Of a DNA stretch of 64,000 bases, positions 16,599 through 20,493 are shown piece by piece. Location of the stretch: the NCBI RefSeq assembly GCF_021117385.1, contig NZ_CP088252.1:2604001-2668000 (forward strand), in the 5' to 3' direction. The notes beneath the pieces are model-generated. The model searched no databases. It saw only the letters and a program-made list of their open reading frames with translations, and was not told the origin of the DNA. The stretch comes from Frateuria soli (GTDB lineage Bacteria; Pseudomonadota; Gammaproteobacteria; Xanthomonadales; Rhodanobacteraceae). The stretch's first letter is position 1; each line of letters begins with the position of its first letter. The translations under genes were made by a program, and so were the position numbers.

Positions 16599-16625
16599 AA
16601 AAGGCGGCGCCCGGCGCCGCCTTTT
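16599..16625. terminator. Bidirectional intrinsic terminator
   Basis: A twelve-base perfect stem (AAAAGGCGGCGC at 16599-16610, GCGCCGCCTTTT at 16614-16625) with a three-base loop and T runs on both strands separates the convergent beta-lactamase-like and TonB-like genes. Confidence 0.92.
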
Positions 16626-16644
16626 CCGTCCCCGCGCCATCGGC

Positions 16645-17640
16645 TCAGAGCTTGAACTCGATCTTCTTCTGGAGCTTGGCTTCCACCGGCGTGCCATTGC
16701 GCGTGGCCGGCTTGTACTTCCAGCGCTCGACCGCGTTGATCGCCTCGCGGTCGAACAGATGCCGCGGTTGCGCGTCGACGACCTGCGCGCCGCTGACATT
16801 GCCCTCGGTATCGACCGTGTAGCCCACCAACACCCAGCCCTGCGTGCGGGTACGCTGCGCCTGGGTCGGGAAGCGCGGCTGCACGTACTTGGTCATCACC
16901 GGATCGGTGGTCACGATCTGCTGCGGCACCGGTGCCGCGGGCTCGGCGGTGGCAGGCGCATTGGCTGCGGCGACCTCGGTCTGCGCCTTCTGTTCGGACG
17001 GCTGCGCCTTCTGCTGGTCCGCCAGCTTGTCGGCCGCCGCCTTGTCCGCCGCCGCCTTGTCGGCAGCCAGTTGCTGCTGGCGCTGCTGTTCGAGCGCCTG
17101 CTGTTGCTCCTTGTCCAGCAGCTTGCGCTGGGCATCGAGCTTGGAGCGCAGGATGGTCAGCGTGTAATTGGCCGGGTCGGCCTTGGCCAGCAGGTCGATC
17201 TCACGCTGCGCCTCGGCAAAGTCGCGCCCGTTGATCGCCTGTTCGGCGCCGCTGGCCGCGAACGGGAAGGTTTCGCGAAGCGCATCGGTGGCGACCGGGT
17301 TGCCCGGCTGCTTTTCCAGCGCCTTCAGGTAGAACTCGAAGGCGTTGTTGCCGGCCGGCGCCAGCACGCGATGGTCGTTCATCGCCTTGCGTGCCTCGGC
17401 GAGCAGCTGGTTCACGTCCATCGCCTCGACGTTGGCGGGCGGCACAACGGCGATCCTGTCGGTCGAGACCGGGGTGGACGGGTGCCCGCCGCCATCCTGC
17501 ATGACCAGTTCCTGATGCGGCTGCAGGATCAGGAACCAGCTGGCCACGGCCAGCAGGACGAAAATGGCGATAACGGCAATCAAGGTGGGGCGGGCGGCCC
17601 CGCGCGCATGCGCGCGCATAGAACTGGAACGGGTATCCAT
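16645..17640 (-). CDS. TonB-like energy transducer with helical-repeat spacer
   Basis: A 331-residue inner-membrane protein. An N-terminal anchor (about 19-40, TLIAVIAIFVLLAVASWFLI) is followed by a TPR-like helical part (about 75-170), a Gln/Lys/Ala-rich coiled coil (about 170-225) and a C-terminal TonB domain (about 245-331: PRFPTQAQRTRTQGWVLVGY and later AINAVERWKYKPATRNG). The usual TonB SxxxH anchor motif and long Pro/Lys-rich rod are not obvious. No ExbB or ExbD lies nearby. It may energise an outer-membrane receptor, or it may belong to the TonB-domain proteins with structural roles. The ATG at 17640 precedes the membrane helix. Confidence 0.82.
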   Translation of the reverse strand: MDTRSSSMRAHARGAARPTLIAVIAIFVLLAVASWFLILQPHQELVMQDGGGHPSTPVSTDRIAVVPPANVEAMDVNQLLAEARKAMNDHRVLAPAGNNAFEFYLKALEKQPGNPVATDALRETFPFAASGAEQAINGRDFAEAQREIDLLAKADPANYTLTILRSKLDAQRKLLDKEQQQALEQQRQQQLAADKAAADKAAADKLADQQKAQPSEQKAQTEVAAANAPATAEPAAPVPQQIVTTDPVMTKYVQPRFPTQAQRTRTQGWVLVGYTVDTEGNVSGAQVVDAQPRHLFDREAINAVERWKYKPATRNGTPVEAKLQKKIEFKL

Positions 17641-17687
17641 GGGACGTTCACCGGTTGGCTTGCATGAGATACCCGCGCTTTTTCCCC

Positions 17688-17732
17688 CTGTAGGAGCGGC
17701 CGTCCCCCAGGACGTGCGCGGCGCGAGTGCGC
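17688..17732. repeat. Partial family A element
   Basis: CTGTAGGAGCGGCCGTC matches the outer arm of the family A palindromes, but the second arm is poorly kept (only GTGCGCGGCGCGAGTGCGC follows). It lies upstream of the TonB-like gene, in the gap to metJ. Probably a decayed copy. Confidence 0.4.
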
Positions 17733-17813
17733 ACAACTTACCGCCAATGCGCCGTGGCGGCAAATACCGGTGCGACTCGGGCCCGCCTGCTTTTCAGGCC
17801 CCTGAAACGAAGC

Positions 17814-17833
17814 GTCCCGGCCGGGGCCGGGAC
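17814..17833 (-). terminator. GC hairpin downstream of metJ
   Basis: A nine-base perfect stem (GTCCCGGCC at 17814-17822 and GGCCGGGAC at 17825-17833) with a two-base loop lies about 80 bases after the metJ stop. On the minus strand it is followed by GCTTCGTTTC, a weak T-rich tail. The rest of the gap to the TonB-like gene (17641-17916) shows no other gene. Confidence 0.5.
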
Positions 17834-17916
17834 GAATCGCTCTTCGAAGTACCCTCCCTGCGCTGGGCACCGCAGGGAGAGAAAAATCGATACCGCTTGT
17901 TGGTCTTCTTTTAGAC

Positions 17917-18447
17917 TTACTTCTTGGCCTTGGCGGTCTTGGTGGCCTTGACCACCTTGGCCGGCGCAGCCTTCTTCGGAGCCGCCTTCTTGGCGGCGAC
18001 CTTCTTGACGGCGACCTTCTTGACAGCAGCCTTCTTGGCGGCGGCCGGCTTCTTGGCGGCAGCCTTCTTCGGCGCAGCCTTCTTGGCGGCGACCTTCTTG
18101 GTTGCCGGCTTCTTGGCAACCGGCTTCTTCGCGGTGGCCTTCTTCACGGCAGTCTTCTTGGCGGGCGCCTTCTTGGCGGCCGGTTTCTTCGCGGTGGTTT
18201 TCTTGGCAGTGGCCATTCGTCTCAGCTCCTCATCAGTTGGCAGTGGTTGCCCAGTAAAAGCGTGCAGGAACGCCTCCACCAGCAGGTCGCTGTTGGTGGC
18301 GTGCCGAAGGTTGTTGACCTGACGGCGCGTGCGCTCGTCGGAAAGCAGACGCAAGACATGCAGCGGGATCGACACGGTGATCTTGCGCACCGCGCCGGCC
18401 TTCTCGCCGTGATCGACATACGGCGTTATGAACTTCGATGCTGCCAT
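17917..18447 (-). CDS. metJ: MetJ methionine repressor fused to a histone-H1-like Lys/Ala tail
   Basis: A 176-residue protein. Residues 1-77 match MetJ, the ribbon-helix-helix repressor of methionine genes that uses S-adenosylmethionine as corepressor. The DNA-contacting strand reads KITVSIP (22-28) and the helices read [17 protein letters not shown] and [13 protein letters not shown], nearly identical to the E. coli protein. The last MetJ helix is absent. From residue 78 the chain becomes about 99 residues of AAKK/PAKK repeats like histone H1, AlgP or Hc1. The start at 18447 has AGGGGAA upstream. An internal in-frame ATG (18216) with its own AGGAG could release the tail alone. The tail probably adds non-specific DNA binding; this is inference. 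Confidence 0.9.
18214..18230 (-). promoter_or_regulatory. Internal ribosome binding site and ATG inside metJ
   Basis: On the minus strand AGGAG (18230-18226) is followed, after nine bases, by an in-frame ATG (18216-18214) that begins [16 protein letters not shown]. The AGGAG bases also code for the Asp-Glu-Glu-Leu segment of MetJ. This would allow translation of a 99-residue basic protein without the repressor domain. Confidence 0.55.
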
Positions 18448-18475
18448 GTGGACCCGTTCCCCTGATCTGAAGCGA

Positions 18476-18504
18476 AAGCTATTCCTGAAGATTTCAACTG
18501 TCAA
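18476..18504 (-). promoter_or_regulatory. Promoter of metJ
   Basis: On the minus strand a perfect TTGACA (18504-18499) is followed, after exactly 17 bases, by TAGCTT (18481-18476). The inferred transcript start lies about 20 bases before the metJ ATG. Confidence 0.65.
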
Positions 18505-18604
18505 TTGATTTCGACCAGAAAATTCAACCGGTCGAAAGCCCCTCCGGCAGCCCGCAAAGGGCCGCGCGGCAAGGGGTTACCGATTAACAGCGGCATTTTC
18601 AATT

Positions 18605-18620
18605 GGGCGTATAAACGTCC
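18605..18620. promoter_or_regulatory. Possible MetJ operator (two degenerate met boxes)
   Basis: GGGCGTAT and AAACGTCC lie side by side (18605-18612, 18613-18620) and match the eight-base met box AGACGTCT at 5 and 6 positions. They are about 100 bases upstream of the metJ promoter, so autoregulation is possible, but the match is weak. Confidence 0.25.
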
Positions 18621-18874
18621 AAACAAGATAATCCGGAAAGCGGAATGGGCCGCGCAAACCCTTGCACCGCAAGGCTTTGCGCCACACGAGCAATTTTCCG
18701 CGTCGACGCACTCCACGCACCATCCCGGCTCGCGGGACGCATCCCGCGAGGAGTCATGGAAACCTTCGTTCGAATGAATGGAAGTCGACCAGCGGCACGA
18801 TCGATGGCGAAGACGGATCGTCCGGGACGCTTCCCGGCCCCTCCCTTCCGGAGGGTCGAGGAGCCGGTTGAGGC
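18621..18874. other. Gap between metJ and gcvH with no supported gene
   Basis: The sequence is unlike the coding DNA around it. It holds a nine-base perfect stem-loop (CTCGCGGGA at 18729-18737, TCCCGCGAG at 18742-18750) and a CCCTCC/GGAGGG hairpin near 18840-18855. Short reading frames here show no family resemblance and no good ribosome binding site. Confidence 0.5.
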
Positions 18875-18904
18875 GATCGTGCGCCGTCGCCGCGGCGCAC
18901 GATC
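18875..18904 (-). terminator. Strong hairpin directly after gcvH
   Basis: A twelve-base perfect stem (GATCGTGCGCCG at 18875-18886, CGGCGCACGATC at 18893-18904) with a six-base loop lies ten bases after the gcvH stop. No T run follows, so it may stabilise the transcript end or act with Rho rather than as a classic intrinsic terminator. Confidence 0.55.
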
Positions 18905-18913
18905 CGGTGACCG

Positions 18914-19309
18914 TCAGTGGTCTTCGTTCTCGATCTGCTCGGCGTACGCATCGGCATCGAGCAGCTCGTCAAGCTCCGCACGATCCGAGATGCGCACGGC
19001 GAAGATCCAGCCGTCGCCGAAGGCGTCTTCGTTGATCGTCTCGGGCTTGTCGTTGAGCAGCTCGTTGACCTCGACGATCTCGCCGGACACGGGCGAATAG
19101 ATGTCCGAAGCGGCCTTCACCGACTCGACCACCGCCACGCCGGTACCGGCCTGCACGCTGGCACCGATCTCGGGCAGTTCCACGTACACCAGGTCGCCGA
19201 GCTGGCCCTGCGCATGGTCGGAGATGCCCACGCGCACCACGCCGTTGTCTTCGACGCGGGCCCACTCGTGGGATTTGAGGAACTTCAGGTCGCCGGGAAT
19301 CTCGCTCAT
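18914..19309 (-). CDS. gcvH: Glycine cleavage system H protein
   Basis: A 131-residue lipoyl-carrier protein that shuttles the aminomethyl group between the P, T and L proteins of the glycine cleavage system. The lipoylated lysine is K65 in [13 protein letters not shown], and length and fold segments fit the family. It lies about 80 bases downstream of gcvT on the same strand, so the two probably form an operon. GcvP is not in the window. No glycine riboswitch was recognised upstream of the pair. Confidence 0.97.
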
Positions 19310-19392
19310 GGTCGGGTCCAGTCGTTGTCGTGGAATGGAGCGGCGATTCTAGCCGCTCGCCGGGAACTCTTATAAAGGATGAAGCGCGTGAA

Positions 19393-20493
19393 TCAGATGC
19401 CTTCGCGGGGCTTGCCGTCACGCACGAACGGATACTTCACCACGCGCACCGGTACCTCGCGGCCGCGGATGTCCACCCGCACGTCGCCCGGCTCGCCGGC
19501 CGGGATGCGCGCGAAGGCCACCGCCTTGTCCAGCGTCGGCGCGAAGCTGCCGGAGAGGATCTCGCCCTCGCCGTTGGCGGTGAGCACCTTCTGCCCGTGC
19601 CGCAACACGCCCTTCTCGTCGAGCACCAGACCGACCATCAGCCGCGATACGCCGGCGGCCTTCTGTGCCTCCAGCGCCTTGCGGCCGATGAAGTCGCGCC
19701 CCTCGTCCAGCGCGATCGTCCAGCCCAGGTTGGCCTCCCACGGCGACACCGTCTCGTCCATGTCCTGGCCGTAGAGGTTCATCCCCGCCTCCAGGCGCAG
19801 CGTGTCGCGCGCGCCCAGGCCGGCCGGCTTGACGCCCGCGTCGGCCAGCGCCTGCCACAGGGCGACCGCCTGCCCGTTGGGCACGATGATCTCGAAGCCG
19901 TCTTCACCGGTGTAGCCGGTGCGCGCGATGAACAGCGGCATGCCGTGCGGGCCCTGCGCGGCGGCGGCGGCGAAGCGGCCGAGCTTCTCGATGCGCGGAC
20001 GGTCGACCTCGTGCAGCAGGCCGATCACCCTGGCACGCGCGTTGGGCCCCTGCACCGCGATCATCGCGAAGTCGGGGCGCTCCTTCACTTCCACGCCGAA
20101 GGCCCTGGCCTGCTGTTCGATCCAGGCCAGGTCCTTGGCGCGCGTGGCGGCGTTCACCACCAGGCGGAAGTGCGCCTCGTCGAAGAAATACGCGATCAGG
20201 TCGTCGATCACGCCGCCCTGCTCGTTGAGCATGCACGAGTACAGCGCCTTGCCCTGCACCTTGAGCTTGTCGACGTCGTTGGCCAGCAGGTGGCGCAGGA
20301 ATTCGCGCGTGCGCGGACCGTGCAGGTCGACCACGGTCATGTGCGAGACATCGAACATGCCGGCATCGCGACGGACGGCGTGGTGCTCCTCGATCTGCGA
20401 GCCGTAGTTGATCGGCATGTCCCAGCCGCCGAAGTCGACCATGCGTGCACCCGACGCGCGGTGGGTCTCGTTGAGTACGGTCTTCTCGGTCAT
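19393..20493 (-). CDS. gcvT: Glycine cleavage system T protein (aminomethyltransferase)
   Basis: A 366-residue aminomethyltransferase that moves the methylene group from the H-protein arm to tetrahydrofolate, releasing ammonia. The family segments [35 protein letters not shown] and the folate-site region [13 protein letters not shown] are all present. The ATG at 20493 gives the standard N-terminus [18 protein letters not shown]. The upstream gap holds a palindromic repeat rather than a riboswitch. It is followed by gcvH in the same direction. Confidence 0.97.

Follow-up and report, generated by a model that had tools for sequence, protein, structure and literature searches.

A metJ gene with an in-frame histone H1-like tail and a probable internal translation start in Rhodanobacteraceae

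MetJ is a textbook repressor and is usually regarded as a short, one-domain protein. The metJ gene of Frateuria soli raises the question of why such a regulator should end in a long lysine- and alanine-rich extension, and whether the gene gives one product or two. It is located in the window, namely the whole stretch of 64,000 nucleotides analysed here (contig NZ_CP088252.1, positions 2,604,001 to 2,668,000), as a single open frame on the minus strand (18447..17917) that translates into 176 amino acids with one terminal stop. Upstream of metJ and on the same strand are frames that we take to be gcvH- and gcvT-like, and the downstream frame is presumably TonB-domain-like. A promoter-like TTGACA-N17-TAGCTT can be read upstream of metJ (18476..18504, minus strand), and this arrangement recurs upstream of metJ in relatives as well as upstream of stand-alone H1-like genes. 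On the 3' side of the gene, a G+C-rich inverted repeat followed by T-rich sequence is terminator-like (17805-17878, minus strand); an Rfam anti-hemB match at this place falls below threshold (21 bits, cut-off 49.5).

The first part of the protein is a MetJ ribbon-helix-helix domain (residues 1-77; 18217..18447, minus strand). It is matched by Pfam PF01340 over residues 5-86 with 126 bits (cut-off 25) and by NCBIfam NF003622 over residues 4-85 with 130 bits (cut-off 110), and residues 4-85 can be aligned to E. coli-type MetJ crystal chains from the PDB. Together with the translation, these matches bear out the sequence-only reading, in which MetJ was proposed to be fused in frame to an H1-like tail. 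The MetJ pattern had been followed up to FTGQPLP; the likeness is real but extends further, to TDEELRR at residue 77, and the tail is therefore considered to start at Met78. Similarity to MetJ stops at residue 77-86, helix C and the full 105-residue length being absent and a tail being found instead, so that the claimed replacement of the C-terminal part of MetJ by Lys/Ala sequence (residues 78-176) holds as well. The protein shares with E. coli-type MetJ the core residues 1-77, the DNA-reading strand KITVS, Arg40 and the presence of MET-box pairs in the genome, and differs from it by the exchange of the C-terminal helix region for a 99-residue Lys/Ala tail. No other MetJ match was obtained in the whole 3.49-Mb genome. 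The nearest named relative of the full protein is from Frateuria flava, with 97% identity over residues 1-176.

The tail (residues 78-176 and the stop; 17917..18216, minus strand) is recognized as H1-like by its composition, by profile matches under the cut-offs and by its counterparts in sister families. Its 99 residues consist of 38 K, 35 A, 9 V, 8 T, 8 P and 1 M, with a computed pI of 11.6 and a charge of about +37, and it is this charge that suggests binding to DNA or its compaction. The changed operator search and the link between SAM and nucleoid state that the sequence-only reading put forward would be possible further consequences. The HC2 profile gives 33-35 bits on the tail, under its cut-off of 40, and the hist_H1_lk_Burk profile 34 bits, under its cut-off of 80. 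The tail thus resembles proteins of the Hc2, hist_H1_lk_Burk and AlgP type in its AAKK/PAKK repeats, its basic character and its low complexity, and is distinguished from them by scores under both curated cut-offs and by being joined to a regulator, behind a proposed internal start. Within the family its length is variable, from 35 to more than 136 residues in the sampled list, and the frame is constant. Two more Lys/Ala-rich proteins unlinked to MetJ are encoded in the same genome (G000:C1:2771827-2772381 and 2371828-2372400, both on the minus strand).

A search of Xanthomonadales for MetJ domains with Lys/Ala tails, which the sequence-only reading had suggested, found the fusion to be family-wide and not order-wide. 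MetJ was matched in 227 of 233 Rhodanobacteraceae genomes, in 26 of 26 genera. The 157 family genes captured are distinct DNA sequences retrieved with one search expression from overlapping collections in which genera are unequally weighted; 150 are complete and 7 are cut by contig ends. An in-frame Lys-rich tail of at least 30 amino acids is present in all 150 complete distinct genes. This count disposes of the frame break by sequencing error that had been named as a possible objection and, since the frame between the two parts is kept throughout, it also speaks against the second objection, that the parts are always made as two separate chains. An assembly or sequencing artefact, already refuted by these genes and by the 26 genera with a MetJ match, in which frames are long among the matches listed, can be given practically no weight. 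Six further family loci lie outside the search expression; by reading, the same junction is present in five of them and was not found in the sixth, L116.

Outside the family, MetJ is less common. It was matched in 96 of 299 genomes of the order, 76 of the matches listed belonging to Rhodanobacteraceae, and in 5 of 369 genomes of a class-wide draw. In the families f8, f9 and f12, in Kangiella and in an Aeromonadales MAG, MetJ has no Lys/Ala tail and stops 10 to 30 residues past TGQPLP. Among 80 named loci, the tail was seen in Frateuria, Dyella, Luteibacter, Rhodanobacter, Dokdonella, Tahibacter, Oleiagrimonas and Mizugakiibacter, and because the tail-bearing named loci fall in these genera, the family corresponds by common naming to Rhodanobacteraceae.

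The junction between the two parts carries a conserved, probable internal translation start, and for this reason the tail is probably also made alone, as a free H1-like protein from the same gene. The proposed start codon, Met78 (18214..18216, minus strand), is ATG in 154 of 155 distinct family genes and GTG in one (G010). It is preceded by a Shine-Dalgarno-like GAGGAG (18226..18231, minus strand), recognized from the Glu codon table and from pairing with the anti-Shine-Dalgarno sequence: the two junction Glu codons are GAG in 155/155 and 156/156 sequences, and the spacing to the start is 8 or 11 nt in the cases inspected. In the window gene, the duplex of the internal site with the anti-Shine-Dalgarno sequence reaches -8.6 kcal/mol; among 301 other in-frame ATGs in the window, 2.3% equal or beat this value, and the Shine-Dalgarno sequence by itself is therefore no proof. 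Across the family, the internal start has the stronger pairing of the two starts in 154 of 155 genes (mean -8.4 vs -4.3 kcal/mol for the first ATG).

Start codon and Shine-Dalgarno sequence are part of a longer junction element, ACTGGGCAACCACTGCCAACTGATGAGGAGCTGAGACGAATGGCC, that covers codons 65-77 and the internal start (18211..18255, minus strand) and is documented by the codon table, parsimony, controls and copy number. It can be written as ACTGGGCAACCACTGCCAACTGAYGAGGAGCTRAGACG followed, directly or one codon later, by the start codon, which encodes the first tail residue. Codon choice in the element is nearly fixed among 156 distinct family sequences, with ACT in 154/156, GGG in 154/156 and CCA in 155/156, and the junction Arg is AGA in 150/150, a codon that makes up 3% of Arg codons elsewhere. 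Parsimony counts on a tree built from the first 50 codons gave 3.8 synonymous changes per codon at columns 56-68 vs 22.3 (minimum 7) at columns 0-53. The element columns still changing are 66 (16 events), 68 (9), 62 (8) and 63 (4). The same six codons vary freely where MetJ has no tail: 20 tail-less relatives average 3.7 distinct codons per column and 14 enteric genes 3.3, whereas subsamples of equal size drawn from 141 family genes give 1.26 and 1.20. The constraint therefore came with the tail. The element occurs once per genome in 12 of 13 family genomes, is absent from all 8 others, and no stand-alone copy was found elsewhere in 21 genomes at up to 3 mismatches. A conserved start codon, a Shine-Dalgarno sequence and synonymous constraint, which are the marks of an internal in-frame start, are thus all present at the junction.

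Three other roles were considered for this sequence and rejected. CTGATGAG and CGAAC resemble the hammerhead core, for which Rfam gave sub-threshold matches only and stem II cannot be formed by reading. A hairpin sequestering the Shine-Dalgarno sequence, drawn from single folds, has variable pairs that break without compensation in 114 distinct sequences. Finally, the out-of-frame TGA stop after the element, which would serve a programmed frameshift, is by reading not common to all relatives.

A different explanation is that the full-length fusion is the only product and that the junction is constrained by an RNA structure, by an sRNA or protein site or by a DNA site. The constrained stretch indeed reaches well upstream of the Shine-Dalgarno sequence, to about codon 54-56. 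Nevertheless, start codon and Shine-Dalgarno sequence are the most constant parts of the junction, no covarying structure was observed, and an Rfam search of positions 16600-19500 returned no family at gathering score and none on the junction. In addition, stand-alone H1-like genes of sister families begin at the matching ATG. We consider this explanation unlikely, even though two further observations would suit it. The predicted accessibility of the internal start is nothing out of the ordinary (unpaired 0.49 vs 0.50 at the first start; more open in 33 of 75), and an open site was discarded as a feature of it. Moreover, the exceptional gene of G010 (L018) retains its whole tail despite an eroded internal start, with GTG, a weak Shine-Dalgarno sequence (-2.2) and an eroded element that scores 34.8 bits, against about 60-74 in others, with the element model R1. 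This sequence-only model was built from 12 sequences, including the leaders of two stand-alone genes from G027 and G029.

Judging from genomic sites and contact residues, the MetJ half seems to have remained a functional repressor, with a putative SAM-dependent binding to operators. Tandem MET-boxes, searched as AGACGTCT twice with up to 2 mismatches, were found at 46 sites in 15 family genomes (13/15 positive) vs 4 for the reversed control, some of the sites being boxes that overlap within a single array. For two sister families, f3 and f2 (the latter probably Xanthomonadaceae), 15 genomes gave a count of 0, and 12 for the control. Neighbours were read for 37 loci, and at least 8 of the 15 family genomes have a metX homologue next to a MET-box, seven with at least 58% identity and G009 with 36%; the assignment of the neighbour to MetX is supported by an NCBIfam score of 354 bits (cut-off 296). 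In the F. soli genome itself, a MET-box is located beside metX at 2585945, outside the window. MET-boxes are also present 170-190 nt upstream of metJ in G009 and G016, and upstream of metJ in G057 (by coordinates) and L065. No good pair was found within 150 nt upstream of the window metJ, where the best reached 8/16. Other pairs adjoin a gene pair common to three genera (L241, L246, L258) and TonB-dependent-receptor-like frames in L232, L240 and L269, all of them candidate regulon members.

In MetJ, Lys23 and Thr25 touch bases. The columns equivalent to these two residues and to Arg40 are kept in 156/156 family sequences. Glu39 and Arg42 (E. coli numbers) are described as the contact residues of the SAM adenosyl group in the excerpt consulted of PMC2775130. 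They are kept in the window protein (Glu38 and Arg41) and in 117 of 156 family sequences. In 38 of 156 they are replaced together, by Leu39 with His, Tyr, Glu or Ser at 42, which is a further difference from the E. coli type, and in one Arg42 alone is replaced (E+H). The fit of the co-repressor is possibly altered in the proteins with both residues replaced; MET-boxes are still frequent in G022, though its protein (L022) has Leu and His at the SAM contacts. In a Rhodanobacter strain, proteomics detected MetJ and found it increased with nitrate, with four methionine enzymes decreased, according to the portion consulted of PMC12146267.

The same data bear on the proposal that the gene is essentially an H1-like gene, its MetJ portion being an upstream reading frame that is dispensable and hardly acts as a repressor. 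The weak first start, the joint replacement of Glu39 and Arg42 in a part of the family and the fact that sister families repeatedly lack the MetJ part yet keep the H1-like gene can be read in this way. However, most columns of the MetJ core show 0 amino-acid changes despite about 22 synonymous changes each, and MET-boxes occur with MetJ and are missing without it, which makes the proposal very improbable.

Counterparts of the tail were found as stand-alone Lys/Ala genes in two genomes without MetJ match, G029 (MATTKKAAAKK...) and G027 (MKAATTKK...). The leaders of both genes resemble the junction element, and in the MetJ frame they look like a broken end of MetJ, FTGQSANQEEL-stop and SGQPQPTDLERS-stop. 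With the element model, matches up to E 0.5 were obtained in 208 of 299 genomes of the order, many of them weak (E 1e-7 to 0.5). From the matches outside the family, 20 leader regions were picked, several g329 and metJ-internal matches being left out. A Lys-rich frame of 72 to 190 amino acids begins at the matching ATG in 19 of these 20 regions, again in genomes without MetJ match, L342 being the one region without an H1-like gene. In 21 of 21 leaders, TTGACA is found 248-407 nt before the ATG.

The leaders were also compared with metJ itself. A DNA profile of family metJ matched the element end in 18 of 21 leaders at E<0.05 (15 at E<0.01), matches that are not independent because the leaders had been preselected with the element model; it gave weak matches at the promoter end and none between promoter and element. 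In parallel, the MetJ protein profile weakly matched the last residues at the leader end in at least 12 of 21 among the matches listed, and in 0 of 105 shuffles. Alignment across families revealed two conserved blocks, CYGGGCA and (C)CAAC/ACTGAYGAGGAG, in otherwise divergent leaders. With DNA and protein profiles on the 21 leaders, no metJ was detected beyond the last ~15 codons, so that a decay of the whole metJ would be an extrapolation from these codons. The sister-family leader looks like a relic of the metJ 3' end. As separate observations, five f2 loci among the L324-L341 leaders share a near-identical promoter stretch, TTGACAGTAAAAAAAACCGTGATTAGGTTTCG, with the CTGGGCA block conserved, and the neighbours of L273 are, by eye, like those of the window (gcvP-like and beta-lactamase-like frames).

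The order of events was considered on an rpoB tree of 25 genomes. The families f9 and f12, with MetJ only, are outermost, followed by f6, f3 and f4 with H1-like genes only, and f1, the fusion family, groups with f2 (H1-like only where examined), the tree leaving f1 vs f2 unseparated. Supports at the relevant forks are 90/89, 94/94 and 83/93. This is read as a fusion in a common ancestor followed by at least three losses of the MetJ part, a direction that we infer from the correspondence of the leader blocks to the coding sequence of the conserved MetJ end. In the reverse order, the H1-like gene and its leader would be older and metJ would have been joined later by recombination at a chance similarity. 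Such a history seems quite unlikely, since the CYGGGCA and ACTGAYGAGGAG blocks correspond to the coding sequence of the conserved MetJ end TGQ..PTDEE, which is also found in tail-less MetJ of other families, and since order, promoter and spacing are common to fusion and stand-alone loci. It would nevertheless agree with the wider distribution of stand-alone genes (families f2, f3, f4 and f6) compared with the fusion (family f1), and with the branching of three stand-alone families outside f1 and f2.

We regard it as likely that one gene gives two products, namely the repressor with its tail and an H1-like protein made on its own. Initiation at the first ATG would yield a MetJ repressor in which the C-terminal helix region is replaced by the +37 Lys/Ala tail. 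This repressor would bind MET-boxes at metX, and in some genera at metJ itself, in response to SAM, and the tail would add non-specific DNA affinity. Translation from the internal ATG, aided by 35-40 nt of upstream sequence together with the conserved GAGGAG, would yield a free H1-like protein of ~99 amino acids with general DNA binding and a putative role in the nucleoid. The gene may have originated when a metJ lacking the C-terminal helix gained a Lys/Ala-rich extension. The sister families would later have lost the MetJ coding part by decay, its 3' end surviving as the ribosome-binding leader of the stand-alone H1-like gene. AerR isoforms (PMC6199135) are similar in that two proteins come from one frame, and different in that the AerR short form apparently has no separate H1-like domain in the part of the source consulted.

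A broader scenario is put forward tentatively. A repressor gene would have borne a nucleoid-protein gene within its own 3' end, both products would still be made in Rhodanobacteraceae, and the SAM-controlled (auto)regulation of metJ would set the level of the H1-like protein. In at least three other lineages of the order, the repressor would have dissolved into the 5' leader of this nucleoid-protein gene, its last codons being kept as an element essential for ribosome binding and perhaps for regulation.

Methionine control in the same order has been described for SamR. The consulted part of that regulon survey (Leyn 2014, PMC4239095) covers four Xanthomonadales genomes with SamR and lists no MetJ in them, whereas MetJ is present in Rhodanobacteraceae; this absence fits a loss in f2. 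In the consulted part of the MetJ regulon survey PMC3228920, neither Xanthomon- nor Rhodanobacter was found. Our literature search found no publication joining MetJ and histone H1-like and a single one with both MetJ and Rhodanobacter, and in the literature on H1-like proteins in the order nothing was found on the metJ-tail gene. MetJ, H1-like tails and internal starts are each known, and their combination, as well as the relic leader, was not found described. The tail and the internal start are easily overlooked because routine annotation says just MetJ, NF003622 being over its cut-off.

The family-wide occurrence of a tailed MetJ offers a direct test of whether a tail with general DNA affinity alters how a regulator finds its sites. 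If the internal start is true, the gene would tie methionine control to an H1-like protein in these bacteria, and, set against the sister families, it would clearly exemplify how coding sequence can become a regulatory leader.
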